64,000 nucleotides of DNA from a virus, in the IMG/VR virus record IMGVR_UViG_3300042197_001179, positions 1 to 64,000 of that record. One strand, written 5' to 3'. A program made the translations under genes and the position numbers. Shown one piece after another: positions 19,430-52,882 of the stretch. Position 1 is the first letter of the stretch, and each line of letters starts with the position of its first letter. The notes beneath the pieces are model-generated. The model made no database searches and was not told the DNA's origin. It saw only the letters and a program-made list of their open reading frames with translations.

Positions 19430-19455
19430 GTTTAAATCCTTAAGAAATGAAAAAG

Positions 19456-19540
19456 ATGGGCTCGGCGGGAATCGAACCCGCACGCTCTTTCGAGCAGTGG
19501 ATTTTAAGTCCACAGCGTCTGCCTATTCCGCCACGAGCCC
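19456..19540 (-). tRNA. tRNA-Leu (UAA anticodon)
   Basis: An 85-base tRNA with acceptor GGGCTCG/CGAGCCC, anticodon stem GTGGA/TCCAC around loop CTTAAAA (anticodon UAA), a long variable arm (TGCTCGAAAGAGCG) typical of class II tRNAs, T-loop TTCGATT and discriminator A. It reads UUA. Confidence 0.93.
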
Positions 19541-19548
19541 ATCTGTGA

Positions 19549-46569: not shown

Positions 46570-49500
46570 TTACACTCCTGTTAACGGTTTAAGTCTGCCT
46601 GCACGTATTTCACGGTGCAACATATTTCCAAGTTGAGTAGCATCGACTTGAGCATTGCCACTAGATTGTAAGGTAATATGAATACCTCCAACGTCGACAC
46701 TGCCACCTGACGATAAATATTGCGGTTTGAAGCTGTTCATGTGTACAAGTTGCGTCCTGAATCTTTGAGCAGCTGCAGCGTTAACAACAAACTCACCCGG
46801 CGTAAGCATTGCCGGTACGGTATCTGTGCCACGTGGCACAAAACCGCCAGCAGCAAATCCTTTAGCAGGGGGTAAGGCGTTTTGGCGGCGAAGTTCTTCA
46901 GTTTGGGCTTCAACAGCTTTGTTAAGAAGATTAATTGCAGTGGATAAGGATTCTGAGCTACTTTTCAATGTCTCAGTGTAAGTTTTTACGCCACCAGTAT
47001 CTGCGCCAGTAGTTTCAGCAAACTTTTTGCTAAGTTCCTCCAACTGCTTAGCAGCTTGATCCCTAAGATTTATCAGATCTTTGAAACCTCCCTTAGACTC
47101 AATCTCTTTCAAAGCGTCTCTTAAGCCTGTAAGAGAGTCTGCCAACTGCTGTTCTTCTGGACCGTCAATCTTGGCTCGGGCTAAAAGATTATTTATCGCC
47201 TCAATTAAAGCAGCGCTGTCTTGAGGATTTTTCAAGGCTTCATTGAATTGGTTATTCACCGATGCAGCTTGTCCGAGCTGTTGCATACGTGCAAATACAT
47301 CCTTTTCATCTGCATCTAATAACAATCTAGAGAACAGGCTGTCTTGATTGGCTAACACGTTAGCGTTGCGGGGATTTATTGAACCTTCAGACTGTAAGCG
47401 AAAATCTTCTATTGTTTTGTTAACAGCGTCTATCTCAGCACTGTAAGTTTTAACCGCACGTTCTTGAGTTTCAATCTCAGTTTTAGCTAAAGCTATACGT
47501 TGAGCAGTCTCTTTTTCAACCGCTTCTAAACGAAGCGTGTTAATGCGATTAACAAAAACTTCTTCACTGGCATGGAGTTGAAGTCTTGTTTCAGCGGCCG
47601 CGTCTTTGAATCCAAGTTTTTCTTGCAAAGCGGCTAATTCAGTTAAAACTACTTTTTGTTTTTCAAATTCTTTAGTGGCAACATCTTCTGTTTCAGCCTT
47701 AGCAATAGTGTCTACATCAAACTTACCAGCCTTCTTAGTTAAAGATTCAAATTTAGCTTCAACCGCAATACGTTCCAGATTAGCTTTTTGTTCAGCAATA
47801 GCTTCTTCAAGTTTAATCTGTTTAATCTTTTCAAGTTCTTCCCTCTCTTGTTTCCTGAGGGCTACAAGCTCTTTAGCTAATTGATTTGTGTCTAAGTTTA
47901 ACCCATTTTCTTCAGCGATTGCAGCGAGTATGCTCTTACGCCGATCAAAAAGCTGCTGAACCTCATCCCGAATAGCTTTGTAGCCATCTAAATCCCCCGT
48001 CGCTGCAAGACCACTTGCATCTACTCGAAGTTTGTTGATTCTGTCAACAATAGCATTAACTTGCTCTTCAGGTGCAAGATTTTCAAGCCCTAAATCAAAA
48101 AGGTCCGCATCTGTGTCTTTAGCATTTTTACCAATCAATTTATCAATATTTTCAAAAAGTTTTAAGTAATCATTTAAAGATGTTTTAGATGCTTCTATAG
48201 TAGATTTAAAACTGGCCAACGCCGCTGATTGACTTTCTTTAACACGTTCAATAATATCGGCATAAATTTCTGATACTTTAGAACTTTCACTATTAAGTAT
48301 TTTTAATCTTTCAGCGGTGGCTTTAATATACTCAGCAGTTTGCAATGTAATGCCCGCTTTAATCTTATTGCTGTAATTTTCTAAGTTCTTTTCCAATTCT
48401 TTGATCGCACGTTGTTGAGCTTTAACGTAGTTGTCTAAATCCGCTTTCATCTTCTCTTCAAAAGCTACTCTAGAAGCATTTGCCAATTCAACCAGTTTAA
48501 CGATTAAAAGAGTCGCGCCAACAGTGAGGGCTATAAAAGGATTTTTAAGTGCTGCAACAGTTAATCTTCCAACAACTAGCGTAAGAGCTGCTACAGCAGG
48601 TATTAAGAGAGCAGTAATAACTTTAGCAGTATTCTTGAAAACTTCTATCAAACCATCAAAACCACCGGACATATCATAGATCGTTTTTAAGAATGACCCG
48701 GCTAAATCTTCGATAAAAACATTACGGATTTCATTTGCAGCCTTACGGAACTGGAATCCAATATTTTCGGTAGTTAATTTGACGGCTCGATCATAGCTGA
48801 CCATAGGGTCTTTAAGTTTTTCTAATGTGCTACGATAGACTTCCGCATTATCGCCCGTCACACCTAATAAACCTGACAGACCGCGTATGGCGTCAACAAA
48901 CTCCGCCATTTCTGTAGAGCTGCCTTTTGTCCTAGATTCAATTTGCTTTAACAGCCCAGGGAATCCGTATAAACTAATTGCGGCTTCACCACTGGTAACA
49001 CCTAACTCTTTGAAAAGTTTAGACATTTCTTCAGTCGGTTTCAGTACCTTAATCAAAACACCGCGAATCTGAGTAGCTGCTTCAGAGTAAGTGTAACCTT
49101 GAATGGTCAACGTAGCAATCATTGAATTAAGTTCAGCAGTCGTTAAACCGGCTTCTTTAGCTAGAATGATTATGCTACCTAAGGAGTTGGCCATATCAGA
49201 CGCTGACACTCGACCTAAGTCGATTGTTCGGAACAACTCAGCAGCAATATCCGTAGCCTCTGAAACGTCCTTACGGTAAGCGTTCATGACAGATTCAATT
49301 AAGTTGGCGGCATCAGACGATGAGGAACCGGTGGCCAATGCAAATTCATTGACCACTCGGCCAAATTCTGCATACGCTGCCGAAGTTTCAATAACTTGAT
49401 TAGACAGTGTATTGTAAGCAGACTTAGTTTGTTCAACAATGTCAACACCAAAAGAATCTGACAATTCTCGTATGGTAGCATTCCAAGCTTTATAAGATTC

Positions 49501-51132
49501 TAAAGGTGGGGAAAGTGTTAAAACTTGTCCTAAAGCCTCTTGGAGTTTTAACGCTTCTCGCGTCATTGTTTGCATTTGATTAGTTACAGTGGATAAAGCT
49601 TGATGAAGTATTTGAATTGAAAAAATCTTGACTAAGCTGCTAAATGTAATACCTACATTTAGAACTTTTTTATTTGATTTTTCAGCCGCTTCACCTAATT
49701 TAACAAAATCTTCACGTACTTGCGAGCCTAACTTAGCTTGTGCATTAGCTACTTGAACCAACTTTGCTTGCAGACCCGCTCTTACTCCGTCGTAATCATT
49801 AACGATGCCGTGGCTGACATCTTTCCAGATTTTAGCTACGAGTGCTGCAGTAAGATTGTTTGCTTTTACAAACTCACGCAACGCTTTATTAGCTGCGTGA
49901 AGATTAAGGAATTCATCGCGTGTAGCCGTATCTCTACGTTGAGGCGTAATGTCAGCATCAACTACGGCCGTAGCTTCAAGAGCTTCACGATTTCTGCTAG
50001 CTTCAATAGCGGCTTTTTGTGCAGCTTTATTGCGTTTAGCAAGCTCAGCCTCAAAATCTTTTGTACGTTTAGCTTCAGCTTTAGCTTCACGCTCACGCAA
50101 CTTTTCATCTTCGGCAGCACGTTTAGCGGCATCTTTTCTAGCAGCGTTACCTAAAGATTGTTGAGCATTGTGAAGATTAACTAAATGTTTCTGAACACCT
50201 GCTTCAACACCTTCATAATCTCGAATAATACCCTTAGTAACATCATCCCATATTTGGGACACTTTTTGACTGCTGATATCATTGTCTTTAACAAATTCCC
50301 TAACTTTGCGATTTGCATCAAAAAGATCGAAAAGTTCATCAGGAGTAGCGGCTTTGAGACCTGATGCAGGTATGCTTTGATCTGTAATTGCGGTTGATCT
50401 AGACGCTTCAGCTTCACGCCGTAAGCTATCTATAGCATCCCGCTCAATCTTTTCACGTTTAGCGTACTCTTGTTTATACTGTTCAGTTAGTTTTTGTTCT
50501 TTAGCCAGTAGTTCAGTACCAATTGCATCACGAGTGTTTTTGTATTTTATAAGGGCATCTTGCACTTCCCTGTAAGCCCCTGTGTATATTTTCAATGTAC
50601 CAGAAGCCACATCTCGCCACACGGCTAAAACTTGTGAGCCTGTCAGTCCGTGTGCTCGACCAATTTCAATGATTCTGGCAATTTGATTCTTAACAGCAGC
50701 GGACTCTTTTTCAGTTGCAGCACTAAAGTCCACGCCAGATTGTAGCTCACGCTTAATTTTAGTGGCAGCGCGAGCGTTTTTAGTTTTAAGTGCTTGAGCA
50801 TCTATAGCTTCTTGCAACTCTCGCTCAGCTTTAGCAGCAGCTTTAGCCTGTTTGGCTTGTTCTTTAACTAAGTTATTGTGTTCTTTAACTTGAATGTTGG
50901 CTAATGCTAAGGCACCCTCAACATCTTTTATAGTGAAAACAACTTCTTGGTTTGCAGATGTTACTGCTTTAATCTTAGCAGCTAAAAGCTCACCAGATTC
51001 CCCGAGAGTGACATTTTTTTCTACAACTTTTAGCTGCGTCCGGCTAAGTTTTTCCCAACCATCAACAAGATCAGCAATAGCTTCAAGTAGATTGCTAGGA
51101 TCGCCATTAAAATAGACTGTATCTTCTGCCAT
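46570..51132 (-). CDS. Tail tape measure protein
   Basis: At 1520 residues it is the largest gene. It is helical and Ala/Glu/Lys-rich with long coiled coils (about 110-360, 900-1400), a hydrophobic patch (about 830-880, including LLIPAVAALTLVVGRLTVAA) and a TP901-type core (MIATLTIQGYTYSEAATQIR). These are the marks of tape measure proteins, which set tail length and pass into the host envelope at infection. By the usual 0.15 nm per residue the tail would be about 230 nm. The N-terminal third shows three internal repeats of an R-E-F-V-K-x-N-x-L/I-S...V-x-x-I-W-D-D-V type. Its ATG overlaps a TAA (TAATG). Confidence 0.9.
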   Translation of the reverse strand: MAEDTVYFNGDPSNLLEAIADLVDGWEKLSRTQLKVVEKNVTLGESGELLAAKIKAVTSANQEVVFTIKDVEGALALANIQVKEHNNLVKEQAKQAKAAAKAERELQEAIDAQALKTKNARAATKIKRELQSGVDFSAATEKESAAVKNQIARIIEIGRAHGLTGSQVLAVWRDVASGTLKIYTGAYREVQDALIKYKNTRDAIGTELLAKEQKLTEQYKQEYAKREKIERDAIDSLRREAEASRSTAITDQSIPASGLKAATPDELFDLFDANRKVREFVKDNDISSQKVSQIWDDVTKGIIRDYEGVEAGVQKHLVNLHNAQQSLGNAARKDAAKRAAEDEKLREREAKAEAKRTKDFEAELAKRNKAAQKAAIEASRNREALEATAVVDADITPQRRDTATRDEFLNLHAANKALREFVKANNLTAALVAKIWKDVSHGIVNDYDGVRAGLQAKLVQVANAQAKLGSQVREDFVKLGEAAEKSNKKVLNVGITFSSLVKIFSIQILHQALSTVTNQMQTMTREALKLQEALGQVLTLSPPLESYKAWNATIRELSDSFGVDIVEQTKSAYNTLSNQVIETSAAYAEFGRVVNEFALATGSSSSDAANLIESVMNAYRKDVSEATDIAAELFRTIDLGRVSASDMANSLGSIIILAKEAGLTTAELNSMIATLTIQGYTYSEAATQIRGVLIKVLKPTEEMSKLFKELGVTSGEAAISLYGFPGLLKQIESRTKGSSTEMAEFVDAIRGLSGLLGVTGDNAEVYRSTLEKLKDPMVSYDRAVKLTTENIGFQFRKAANEIRNVFIEDLAGSFLKTIYDMSGGFDGLIEVFKNTAKVITALLIPAVAALTLVVGRLTVAALKNPFIALTVGATLLIVKLVELANASRVAFEEKMKADLDNYVKAQQRAIKELEKNLENYSNKIKAGITLQTAEYIKATAERLKILNSESSKVSEIYADIIERVKESQSAALASFKSTIEASKTSLNDYLKLFENIDKLIGKNAKDTDADLFDLGLENLAPEEQVNAIVDRINKLRVDASGLAATGDLDGYKAIRDEVQQLFDRRKSILAAIAEENGLNLDTNQLAKELVALRKQEREELEKIKQIKLEEAIAEQKANLERIAVEAKFESLTKKAGKFDVDTIAKAETEDVATKEFEKQKVVLTELAALQEKLGFKDAAAETRLQLHASEEVFVNRINTLRLEAVEKETAQRIALAKTEIETQERAVKTYSAEIDAVNKTIEDFRLQSEGSINPRNANVLANQDSLFSRLLLDADEKDVFARMQQLGQAASVNNQFNEALKNPQDSAALIEAINNLLARAKIDGPEEQQLADSLTGLRDALKEIESKGGFKDLINLRDQAAKQLEELSKKFAETTGADTGGVKTYTETLKSSSESLSTAINLLNKAVEAQTEELRRQNALPPAKGFAAGGFVPRGTDTVPAMLTPGEFVVNAAAAQRFRTQLVHMNSFKPQYLSSGGSVDVGGIHITLQSSGNAQVDATQLGNMLHREIRAGRLKPLTGV

Positions 51133-51698
51133 TACTTAACCTCTCCTGTTGTGAGGTACTTTAACAATTCTTTCCCATCCAAAACTTCTCGTTTATGGCT
51201 GTTCCAATGATCTAGGAACGCTTCTCTACCCGCTTCTAAACTTTGCCACACTGGAGGACTGGGCACATTGCCTAAACCTTGCTCATTCAAGAAATGTTGC
51301 AATACAACTATCTTAAATTGAAATACTAGAAACGGGTGATCAACTGTGCCAAATTCAAACACATACGCATCCTTACCTAAGCGCTCGCCCAGGGCTTTCG
51401 ACCTGAACGGCGCGTTGTTGTTTGCAAAATCACCGTAAGCTTTAGTGTGTCCTTTTCGGATTCTTTTGCTAGGTGAGATGGCATTCAACGTAGTTTTGAA
51501 TTTAACTTTAGCTGCTAATGGATAGAGTGAAGCTATTGACATTCCAGTGTCAACAACAATGTTATGTGCAGTGGCTTCTAAAAAAGCTAAAAGTGAATCT
51601 TTCCAAAGTTCAACTATTTTTCGATAAAAAATTTCTTTTGCGATCTTTTTAGACCTACGTGTTCCGAATGAGCGAGAAGATTTTATGGTAACTTTCAT
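51132..51698 (-). CDS. Tail protein between chaperone and tape measure
   Basis: A 188-residue basic protein with VVDTGMSIASLYPLA, resembling the VDTGRLRASI element of HK97 gp10-like proteins that act at the head-tail or tail-tip joint. Its ATG overlaps the stop of the frameshifted chaperone (ATGA). It is a probable tail assembly factor. Confidence 0.58.
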   Translation of the reverse strand: MKVTIKSSRSFGTRRSKKIAKEIFYRKIVELWKDSLLAFLEATAHNIVVDTGMSIASLYPLAAKVKFKTTLNAISPSKRIRKGHTKAYGDFANNNAPFRSKALGERLGKDAYVFEFGTVDHPFLVFQFKIVVLQHFLNEQGLGNVPSPPVWQSLEAGREAFLDHWNSHKREVLDGKELLKYLTTGEVK

Positions 51699-52374
51699 CT
51701 TGCCACCGCCTTTAGCATGTTTTCAAGCTTTTTATGCTCGTACTCAGCTATTTCGTAATCTCTAATTTGATTATACGCAATGAGTTGAGCCTTAACCCAT
51801 ACACTGCAGTCATCCCATTTAGAGGCTACGTCCGGTGGCAATATACCAAATCTTTCACACGCTTTCCAAATAGCGTAAGTCTCTGTACGGAACTCAGGCA
51901 GGGTTACGCGACGTTGGCCGCTGCCAGAGTAGCTAAAAAATCATTTGTAGCTCGCTCAATAGCTTCTTCATTCAAACCATTGATTCGAACAATTTGATCA
52001 ATTAAATGACGAATCTCGCCGGGAGTGAGTGCTTCACTGAGTTCAGTTTGGTAATTTCCCCAAGTAGTAGGGTCAGAATCTTTAACAGTTTCCCACTCTA
52101 AATCAGGTGTAGCTGATAAAGATTGCAATGTCATCCAATGCATTTTAGCTTCAGCCCACTTTTGCACCGAGTCTTTATAGTCTTTGTCGGTCACATCCAA
52201 CTGTTGAATGCCGCCGGGCAAAGTCTTGATGGGTGGTGTTGGCGAGGGAAAAAGCTTAGCAAAGACGTCAAAATTGATGACAGCTTTAACCTTGAATCGA
52301 AGTGCCTCATTTTCGTTACGAGGAAAAACGACCCACTTTTCAGGAACACCAAACTTACGACCAGAAATCTTCAT
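51695..52374 (-). CDS. Tail assembly chaperone GT-type fusion by -1 frameshift
   Basis: The 156-residue frame (G-type) starts at 52374 and would stop at 51904. At the slippery T TTT TTA (51934-51940) a -1 shift lets ribosomes continue through a second open frame to the TGA at 51695. The fusion has 147 plus 79 residues, 226 in all. The second frame has no start codon of its own near the junction, has clear coding character (TETYAIWKACERFGILPPDV) and ends overlapping the next ATG. Lambda G/GT does the same: both products help tail tube assembly around the tape measure. Gene order (tail tube, G/GT, tape measure) matches. Confidence 0.88.
51904..52374 (-). CDS. Tail assembly chaperone, unshifted product (G-type)
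   Basis: The zero-frame product has 156 residues: a beta-rich N-terminus (VPEKWVVFPRNENEALRFKV) and a helical C-terminus with TPGEIRHLIDQIVRINGLNE. It ends nine codons after the slippery site. It is expected to be the major form, with the fusion made at lower level. No Pfam-level family is obvious; the role follows from position and frameshift. Confidence 0.8.
   Translation of the reverse strand: MKISGRKFGVPEKWVVFPRNENEALRFKVKAVINFDVFAKLFPSPTPPIKTLPGGIQQLDVTDKDYKDSVQKWAEAKMHWMTLQSLSATPDLEWETVKDSDPTTWGNYQTELSEALTPGEIRHLIDQIVRINGLNEEAIERATNDFLATLAAANVA
51934..51940 (-). promoter_or_regulatory. Programmed -1 frameshift heptamer T TTT TTA
   Basis: On the coding strand the zero-frame codons are GAT TTT TTA GCT. 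The heptamer is the same as that of HIV-1 gag-pol and allows both tRNAs to re-pair in the -1 frame. The downstream stretch is GC-richer than its surroundings and may form a stimulatory structure, which I did not fold. Confidence 0.85.
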
Positions 52375-52402: not shown

Positions 52403-52882
52403 TTAGGAATAGGCTTCCACAGTGGCAGCCTTAATGTTGCACTTGCCGGTGAAGGAGAACGTACCAGCTCGCATATCAAAATCTACTTGCTCCCAACGGA
52501 AGTCAGCCAACGTGATTTTGGCTCCGCCGCCAGCACAGTTGGGGTCGTAAGTGACGACAATGTCGCACGCGTAAGGGCGACAAGCGTCCGTGTCGCTGGA
52601 GACGTAAGAGTCAAGACCCTTAATGATTGGGACAGGTGAAGTGCTGCCGGTGATAGATTCCCACACAGCATCAAGACGCACGTCGACAGGTGCTTCATCA
52701 CCTTCACGCACTTCACTTAAAGCGCCACCATCTAAGGTGTACTCGATATTGCGACGTTCGGTCCAAGTCAAGTTACCTTCACCTAACTTAACAACCACCT
52801 TGGTGTTGGCGCCGTCAATCAACTCAATAGTAGCAAACTTAAGGTCCAACTGAGCAAAAACACTGATGAAAACGCGAGTCAT
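52403..52882 (-). CDS. Major tail tube protein (probable)
   Basis: The 159-residue beta-rich protein lies just upstream of the chaperone and downstream of the connector genes, the normal site of the tail tube gene. Strong codon bias and higher GC than its neighbours suggest an abundant product, and its end (GTFSFTGKCNIKAATVEAYS) suits a tube fold. The assignment is from context. Confidence 0.68.
   Translation of the reverse strand: MTRVFISVFAQLDLKFATIELIDGANTKVVVKLGEGNLTWTERRNIEYTLDGGALSEVREGDEAPVDVRLDAVWESITGSTSPVPIIKGLDSYVSSDTDACRPYACDIVVTYDPNCAGGGAKITLADFRWEQVDFDMRAGTFSFTGKCNIKAATVEAYS

Follow-up and report, generated by a model that had tools for sequence, protein, structure and literature searches.

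A divergent tail assembly chaperone pair, probably expressed by −1 frameshifting at U UUU UUA, in an uncultured tailed phage

Two overlapping reading frames upstream of the tape measure gene of this virus most probably (roughly 95%) encode a divergent tail assembly chaperone pair of the G/GT type, in which comparison of sequences points to a −1 slip as the source of the longer product. The DNA analysed (the window, 64,000 nucleotides) is part of a virus record of 67,869 bases and also carries a GpA-type terminase and a P22-like coat protein. The frameshift itself is of a known kind, well known in tailed phages, and the protein family is divergent and previously unnamed; the less ordinary part lies in relatives with unusual slip sites rather than in the frameshift. 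This reading would give a function to a protein family lacking annotation in the libraries searched and would amend the annotated genes of uncultured phages and of the cultured Slashvirus phages.

Organization of the G/T locus and its proposed expression

The features of the locus, in the coordinates of the window, are as follows.

51904..52374, minus strand: putative G-type tail assembly chaperone, zero frame, 156 aa (open reading frame and translation; conserved in viral contigs)
51934..51940, minus strand: slippery heptamer T TTT TTA, zero-frame codons GAT TTT TTA GCT (sequence)
51904..51933, minus strand: dual-coding zero-frame tail past the slip site, ATLAAANVA and stop
51695..51934, minus strand: T-type domain, −1 frame, 79 aa and TGA (open frame, conserved motif)
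52403..52882, minus strand: probable tail tube protein, 159 aa (role by position)
51132..51698, minus strand: 188-aa gene between T and the tape measure gene, its start overlapping the T stop (ATGA)
46570..51132, minus strand: tape measure protein, 1520 aa (PhageMin_Tail, E 9e-22; tape-measure PHROGs, E 2e-24)

The heptamer at 51940–51934 lies in phase and close to the zero-frame stop, and its first T is the exact point at which the −1 frame opens. The preceding −1 codon is TGA, so that the frame can be entered only at or after the heptamer; from 51940 it remains open to the TGA at 51697–51695, which overlaps the ATG at 51698–51696 as ATGA. Translation across the junction yields a G-T fusion of 226 residues and a stop, of which 147 derive from the zero frame and 79 from the −1 frame. 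The initial annotation, which had placed the zero-frame gene at 52374–51904, the heptamer at 51940–51934 in the phase GAT TTT TTA, and the end of the second frame at a TGA at 51695 sharing ATGA with the next start, was exact to the base. Its remark that the second frame has no nearby start also held, no ATG, GTG or TTG lying ahead of the conserved RT..YAIW core in the −1 frame of the window. The heptamer by itself is weak evidence, because three further in-phase copies of TTTTTTA occur in open reading frames of the window. The 188-aa gene, conserved in place in part of the relatives and inferred to be tail-completion-like, contains TTTTTTA twice apart from the slip site, and the copy at codon 37 is in slip phase.

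In the proposed scheme, most ribosomes would read 52374–51904 to produce the 156-aa G, and a minority would slip back one base at U UUU UUA (51940–51934), through simultaneous or P-site slippage, and continue to 51695 to produce the 226-aa G-T. The identity of the slipping tRNA would decide whether residue 147 of the fusion is Leu or Phe, and the T-type domain would be made only as part of this fusion. If lambda is a guide, the tape measure protein may be coated by G in large and by G-T in small numbers, with the T part recruiting tail tube subunits. The frameshift rate would probably be low, because U UUU UUA is far less slippery in E. coli than A AAA AAG and because lambda requires a G:GT ratio of ~30:1 (PMC5009743).

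A stimulatory RNA structure downstream, raised in the initial annotation, did not emerge from synonymous-shuffle folding, alifold or region-wise codon resampling: no stem or helix is common to the TTTTTTA loci, and the fold of the window is not unusual against synonymous controls. On average the TTTTTTA loci fold ~1 sd better than codon-preserving controls (z ~ −1, 90–120 nt), and, given this gain without a common helix, idiosyncratic structures may help in some lineages. An SD-like GAGGAGG upstream is present in only 5 of 22 loci and absent from the window, and an Rfam search returned nothing.

Conservation of the pair among viral relatives

Searches of IMG/VR with the G domain gave 22 non-redundant sequences including the window (tblastn matches at 37–48% identity), and a T-domain search retained 80 of 191 relatives. 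Two more were added from genome contigs, which gave no match when searched with the G query. After removal of duplicates, 74 non-redundant loci were comparable, and all 74 conserve the G and T domains with an identical frame offset between them. As slip site, 51 of these loci have TTTTTTA, 14 have TTTTCTA, three have TTTTATA, and one each has TTTTTTC, TTTTTTG and TTTTCCA; the remaining three comprise two with A AAT TTC one codon upstream (L076 and L097) and one with CGG CTT TTA. From the codon usage of the family, the heptamer would be expected by chance at ~0.02 per locus (TTT given Phe, 0.46; TTA given Leu, 0.16; third-base T, 0.29), against the exact TTTTTTA observed in 51 of 74. The residue ahead of the site varies among the 51 canonical loci (R, S, D, A, G or V), but its codon always ends in T.

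Selection acts on both frames. The T domain carries the motif RT..YAIWRACERFG..P...WD....A.LIAY.QIR..EE common to the relatives, with F2, R18, E29, P35 and R60 invariant (P0002 numbering) and a mean pairwise identity of 44% in a set of 21 loci. Substitutions are commonest at third positions of the −1 frame, and dN/dS in this frame is 0.16–0.24 for the pairs with measurable dS, dS being saturated in most pairs. Relatives differ in the length of the zero-frame tail past the site (6 to 45 aa), whereas the −1 frame remains conserved. These comparisons support the second frame as a real, conserved coding region under protein-level selection, in line with the initial annotation, which had judged it to look coding. 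The AF2 model of the T domain reaches a pLDDT of 85, and a fold search for this domain returned nothing.

Wherever the sequence includes the flanks, relatives preserve the order head-closure-like gene, 152-aa gene, tube-like gene, G, T, small gene and tape measure, the small gene between T and the tape measure often being divergent. The G/T pair lies between tube-like and tape-measure genes in the window and in 20+ relatives, and in every family locus whose sequence includes this flank the tube-like protein is encoded immediately upstream of G (32–57% identity). The earlier assignment of the order tube, G, T and tape measure is thus kept in the relatives, with the tube label given by position; the 159-aa protein found no family match in Pfam or PHROG. 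Frames, slip site, selection and synteny therefore agree with the G/GT-type pair first proposed, and from them we infer the −1 frameshift and the chaperone role. The phage is probably a siphovirus, because no sheath gene was noticed. Two relatives lie in MAG contigs called Anaerolinea and Patescibacteria, possibly through binning artefacts.

Replaced slip sites and alternative explanations

Loss of the heptamer and of the open second frame in close relatives, which the initial annotation had set against its own proposal, was looked for in the relatives. The second frame is kept except in one deletion contig; the heptamer is replaced in some lineages, and the frame relation stays. The deletion is seen in L007 (1838–1850), which, compared with L008 (3892–4160), lacks ~270 bases comprising the G tail and the whole T domain and joins G in frame to the next gene, whether as a natural or an assembly deletion. 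L006 (near 2338) and L008 (near 3868) carry CGG CTT TTA without a canonical heptamer, and their T domain is still in the −1 frame.

Most non-canonical sites fall in one clade of 21 loci (support 97/90), which also holds two TTTTTTA loci. In 15 loci of this clade an invariant GGTTTTTC(T/C)A takes the place of the heptamer, and the −1 domain is retained and continues unchanged in register; these GGTTTTTCTA loci are L081, L092, L093 (CCA), L095, L096, L103–L105, L107, L108, L112–L115 and L040. GTT TTT is present in 15 of 15, a G before GTT in 15 of 15 and CTA in 14 of 15, the CTA being kept even in GC-rich loci where it makes up 2–4% of Leu codons. Apart from A AAT TTC (two loci) and TTTTTTG itself (one locus), no other in-phase XXXYYYZ occurs in the overlap of the listed non-canonical loci. 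Tentatively, and at somewhat less than even odds, the viruses with G GUU UUU C(U/C)A (15 loci) and U UUU AUA (three loci) may frameshift in one of two ways, with peptidyl-tRNA-Phe slipping on U UUU ahead of a slow codon in the A site or with tRNA-Val re-pairing imperfectly on GGU; in some members of the family, a virus-encoded tRNA for the A-site codon could tune the rate. Going by the names, GGTTTTT and GGCTTTT would be similar to the 'twofive' and 'twoonefour' motifs that PRFect lists in SEA-PHAGES data (PMC10885494). The family offers a natural series of slip sites on the same protein joint (UUUUUUA, UUUUUUC, UUUUUUG, GGUUUUUCUA, UUUUAUA and AAAUUUC), with which the importance of each part of a bacterial −1 slip site can be probed.

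As a side observation, the window encodes at 19455–19541 (minus strand) a tRNA-Leu(UAA), whose anticodon matches the A-site codon UUA of the heptamer; the same tRNA is encoded in three other contigs with a UUA site (those of L015, L043 and L046), and the AUA-site contig of L119 encodes tRNA-Ile(UAU). This match may be ordinary codon adaptation, because several other contigs lack a tRNA of this kind and UUA ranks first among the Leu codons of the window (28%).

The same comparisons bear on other origins of the second frame. Independent initiation of T as a gene in its own right, with the heptamer present by coincidence, gains some support from Slashvirus, where the annotation gives T a separate RBS and a TTG start, so that separate initiation may exist in relatives. 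It is nonetheless highly improbable for the family: 61 of 74 loci, the window included, have no ATG, GTG or TTG ahead of the conserved core in the −1 frame, the remaining 13 share no conserved start, and the F-L columns of the 51 canonical loci use TTT and TTA exclusively, other conserved Phe and Leu columns having mixed codons. The reading of the −1 frame as the remnant of a broken gene, or as a sequencing error splitting one ORF, could appeal to the metagenomic assembly and to the fact that G and T could in principle form one ORF, but the same frame relation recurs in 74 non-redundant loci from many data sets and no in-frame fused version was seen among them; comparison of the loci already refutes this reading, and its probability is close to nil.

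The six Ts conserved in most loci would also suit slippage of the polymerase, rather than of the ribosome, as the source of a fusion mRNA. A run of T6 is, however, short for slippage by bacterial RNA polymerase, and the GGTTTTTCTA clade has only T5. L076 and L097 have no long T run and carry the canonical A AAT TTC instead. Slippage by the polymerase would moreover require neither the exact tRNA phase nor the A-site codon, and both are conserved. Transcriptional slippage is thus very unlikely, and the −1 ribosomal slip stays the preferred reading.

Relation to known tail assembly chaperones and slip sites

The AF2 model of G (pLDDT 90.5) has B. subtilis YqbN (3klu) as its best PDB match in Foldseek, a weak one (E 0.12, probability 0.84, TM 0.39/0.48). 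YqbN is a member of the XkdN-like TAC family, from which the best Pfam and PHROG matches of G also come. The C-terminal part of G matches PF08890 (TAC_5) at 15.3 bits, below the curated cut-off of 27; this is the only such match in the whole record, and 1 of 22 family members matches. The XkdN/YqbN-like family thus supplies both the top solved structure and the best family match of G, but the score is below the cut-off, the Foldseek E-value is only 0.12 and no sheath gene was noticed here. None of these scores is strong by itself, and together they weakly suggest kinship.

No match to the lambda G or T families was found in Pfam or PHROG, so the earlier statement that the products have no evident kinship with lambda G/T stands at the level of sequence. 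The lambda slip heptamer is G GGA AAG, and the locus described here differs from lambda gpG/gpGT in having U UUU UUA and an extra gene between T and the tape measure, as well as in showing no detectable sequence kinship. The slip site is identical to that of HIV gag-pol (U UUU UUA), but here no downstream stimulatory structure was detected and the ribosomes are bacterial.

The closest cultured relatives found are the equivalents of genes 48/49 in the Slashvirus phages Slash, Staley, Stahl and Stills, a link clearer than that to XkdN/YqbN. Among viral proteins, the structure that matches the G model best is that of U5Q195, a 152-aa protein of Bacillus phage Staley (E 2.3e-4), and global alignment of G of the window with Staley_49 gives z 6.1. 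Staley_53, also of 152 aa and near the tape measure, was considered as U5Q195 and rejected, its alignment z being −1.2 against 6.1 for Staley_49. Profile comparison of G with Slash_48 is weak (probability 4), and tblastn of the G, T and tube proteins against cultured phages found nothing at the initial limits. When these were relaxed, the T domain of L003 reached Slashvirus at E 0.6, a link that by this value could be chance but that the independent structure match in the neighbouring gene supports; the Slashvirus gene right after the G homologue matches the T profile at E 1.4e-5 in a single comparison.

All four Slashvirus genomes carry A AAA AAC in phase, close to where the first gene ends, and the −1 frame is open into the second. 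The pairs are located as follows.

L122, 3510–4159: Slashvirus G/T pair with in-phase A AAA AAC
L124, 1507–2156: Slashvirus G/T pair with in-phase A AAA AAC
L125, 1510–2159: Slashvirus G/T pair with in-phase A AAA AAC
L126, 1510–2159: Slashvirus G/T pair with in-phase A AAA AAC

As in the window, the G homologue has a T homologue immediately behind it, in the −1 frame, but Slashvirus uses another heptamer, possibly has a separate TTG start with an RBS for T, and places three genes between T and the tape measure. In these Bacillus megaterium phages both genes of the pair are called hypothetical and the frameshift is not annotated; in the Stills record, other genes (49/50) are marked as the frameshifted tape measure chaperone.
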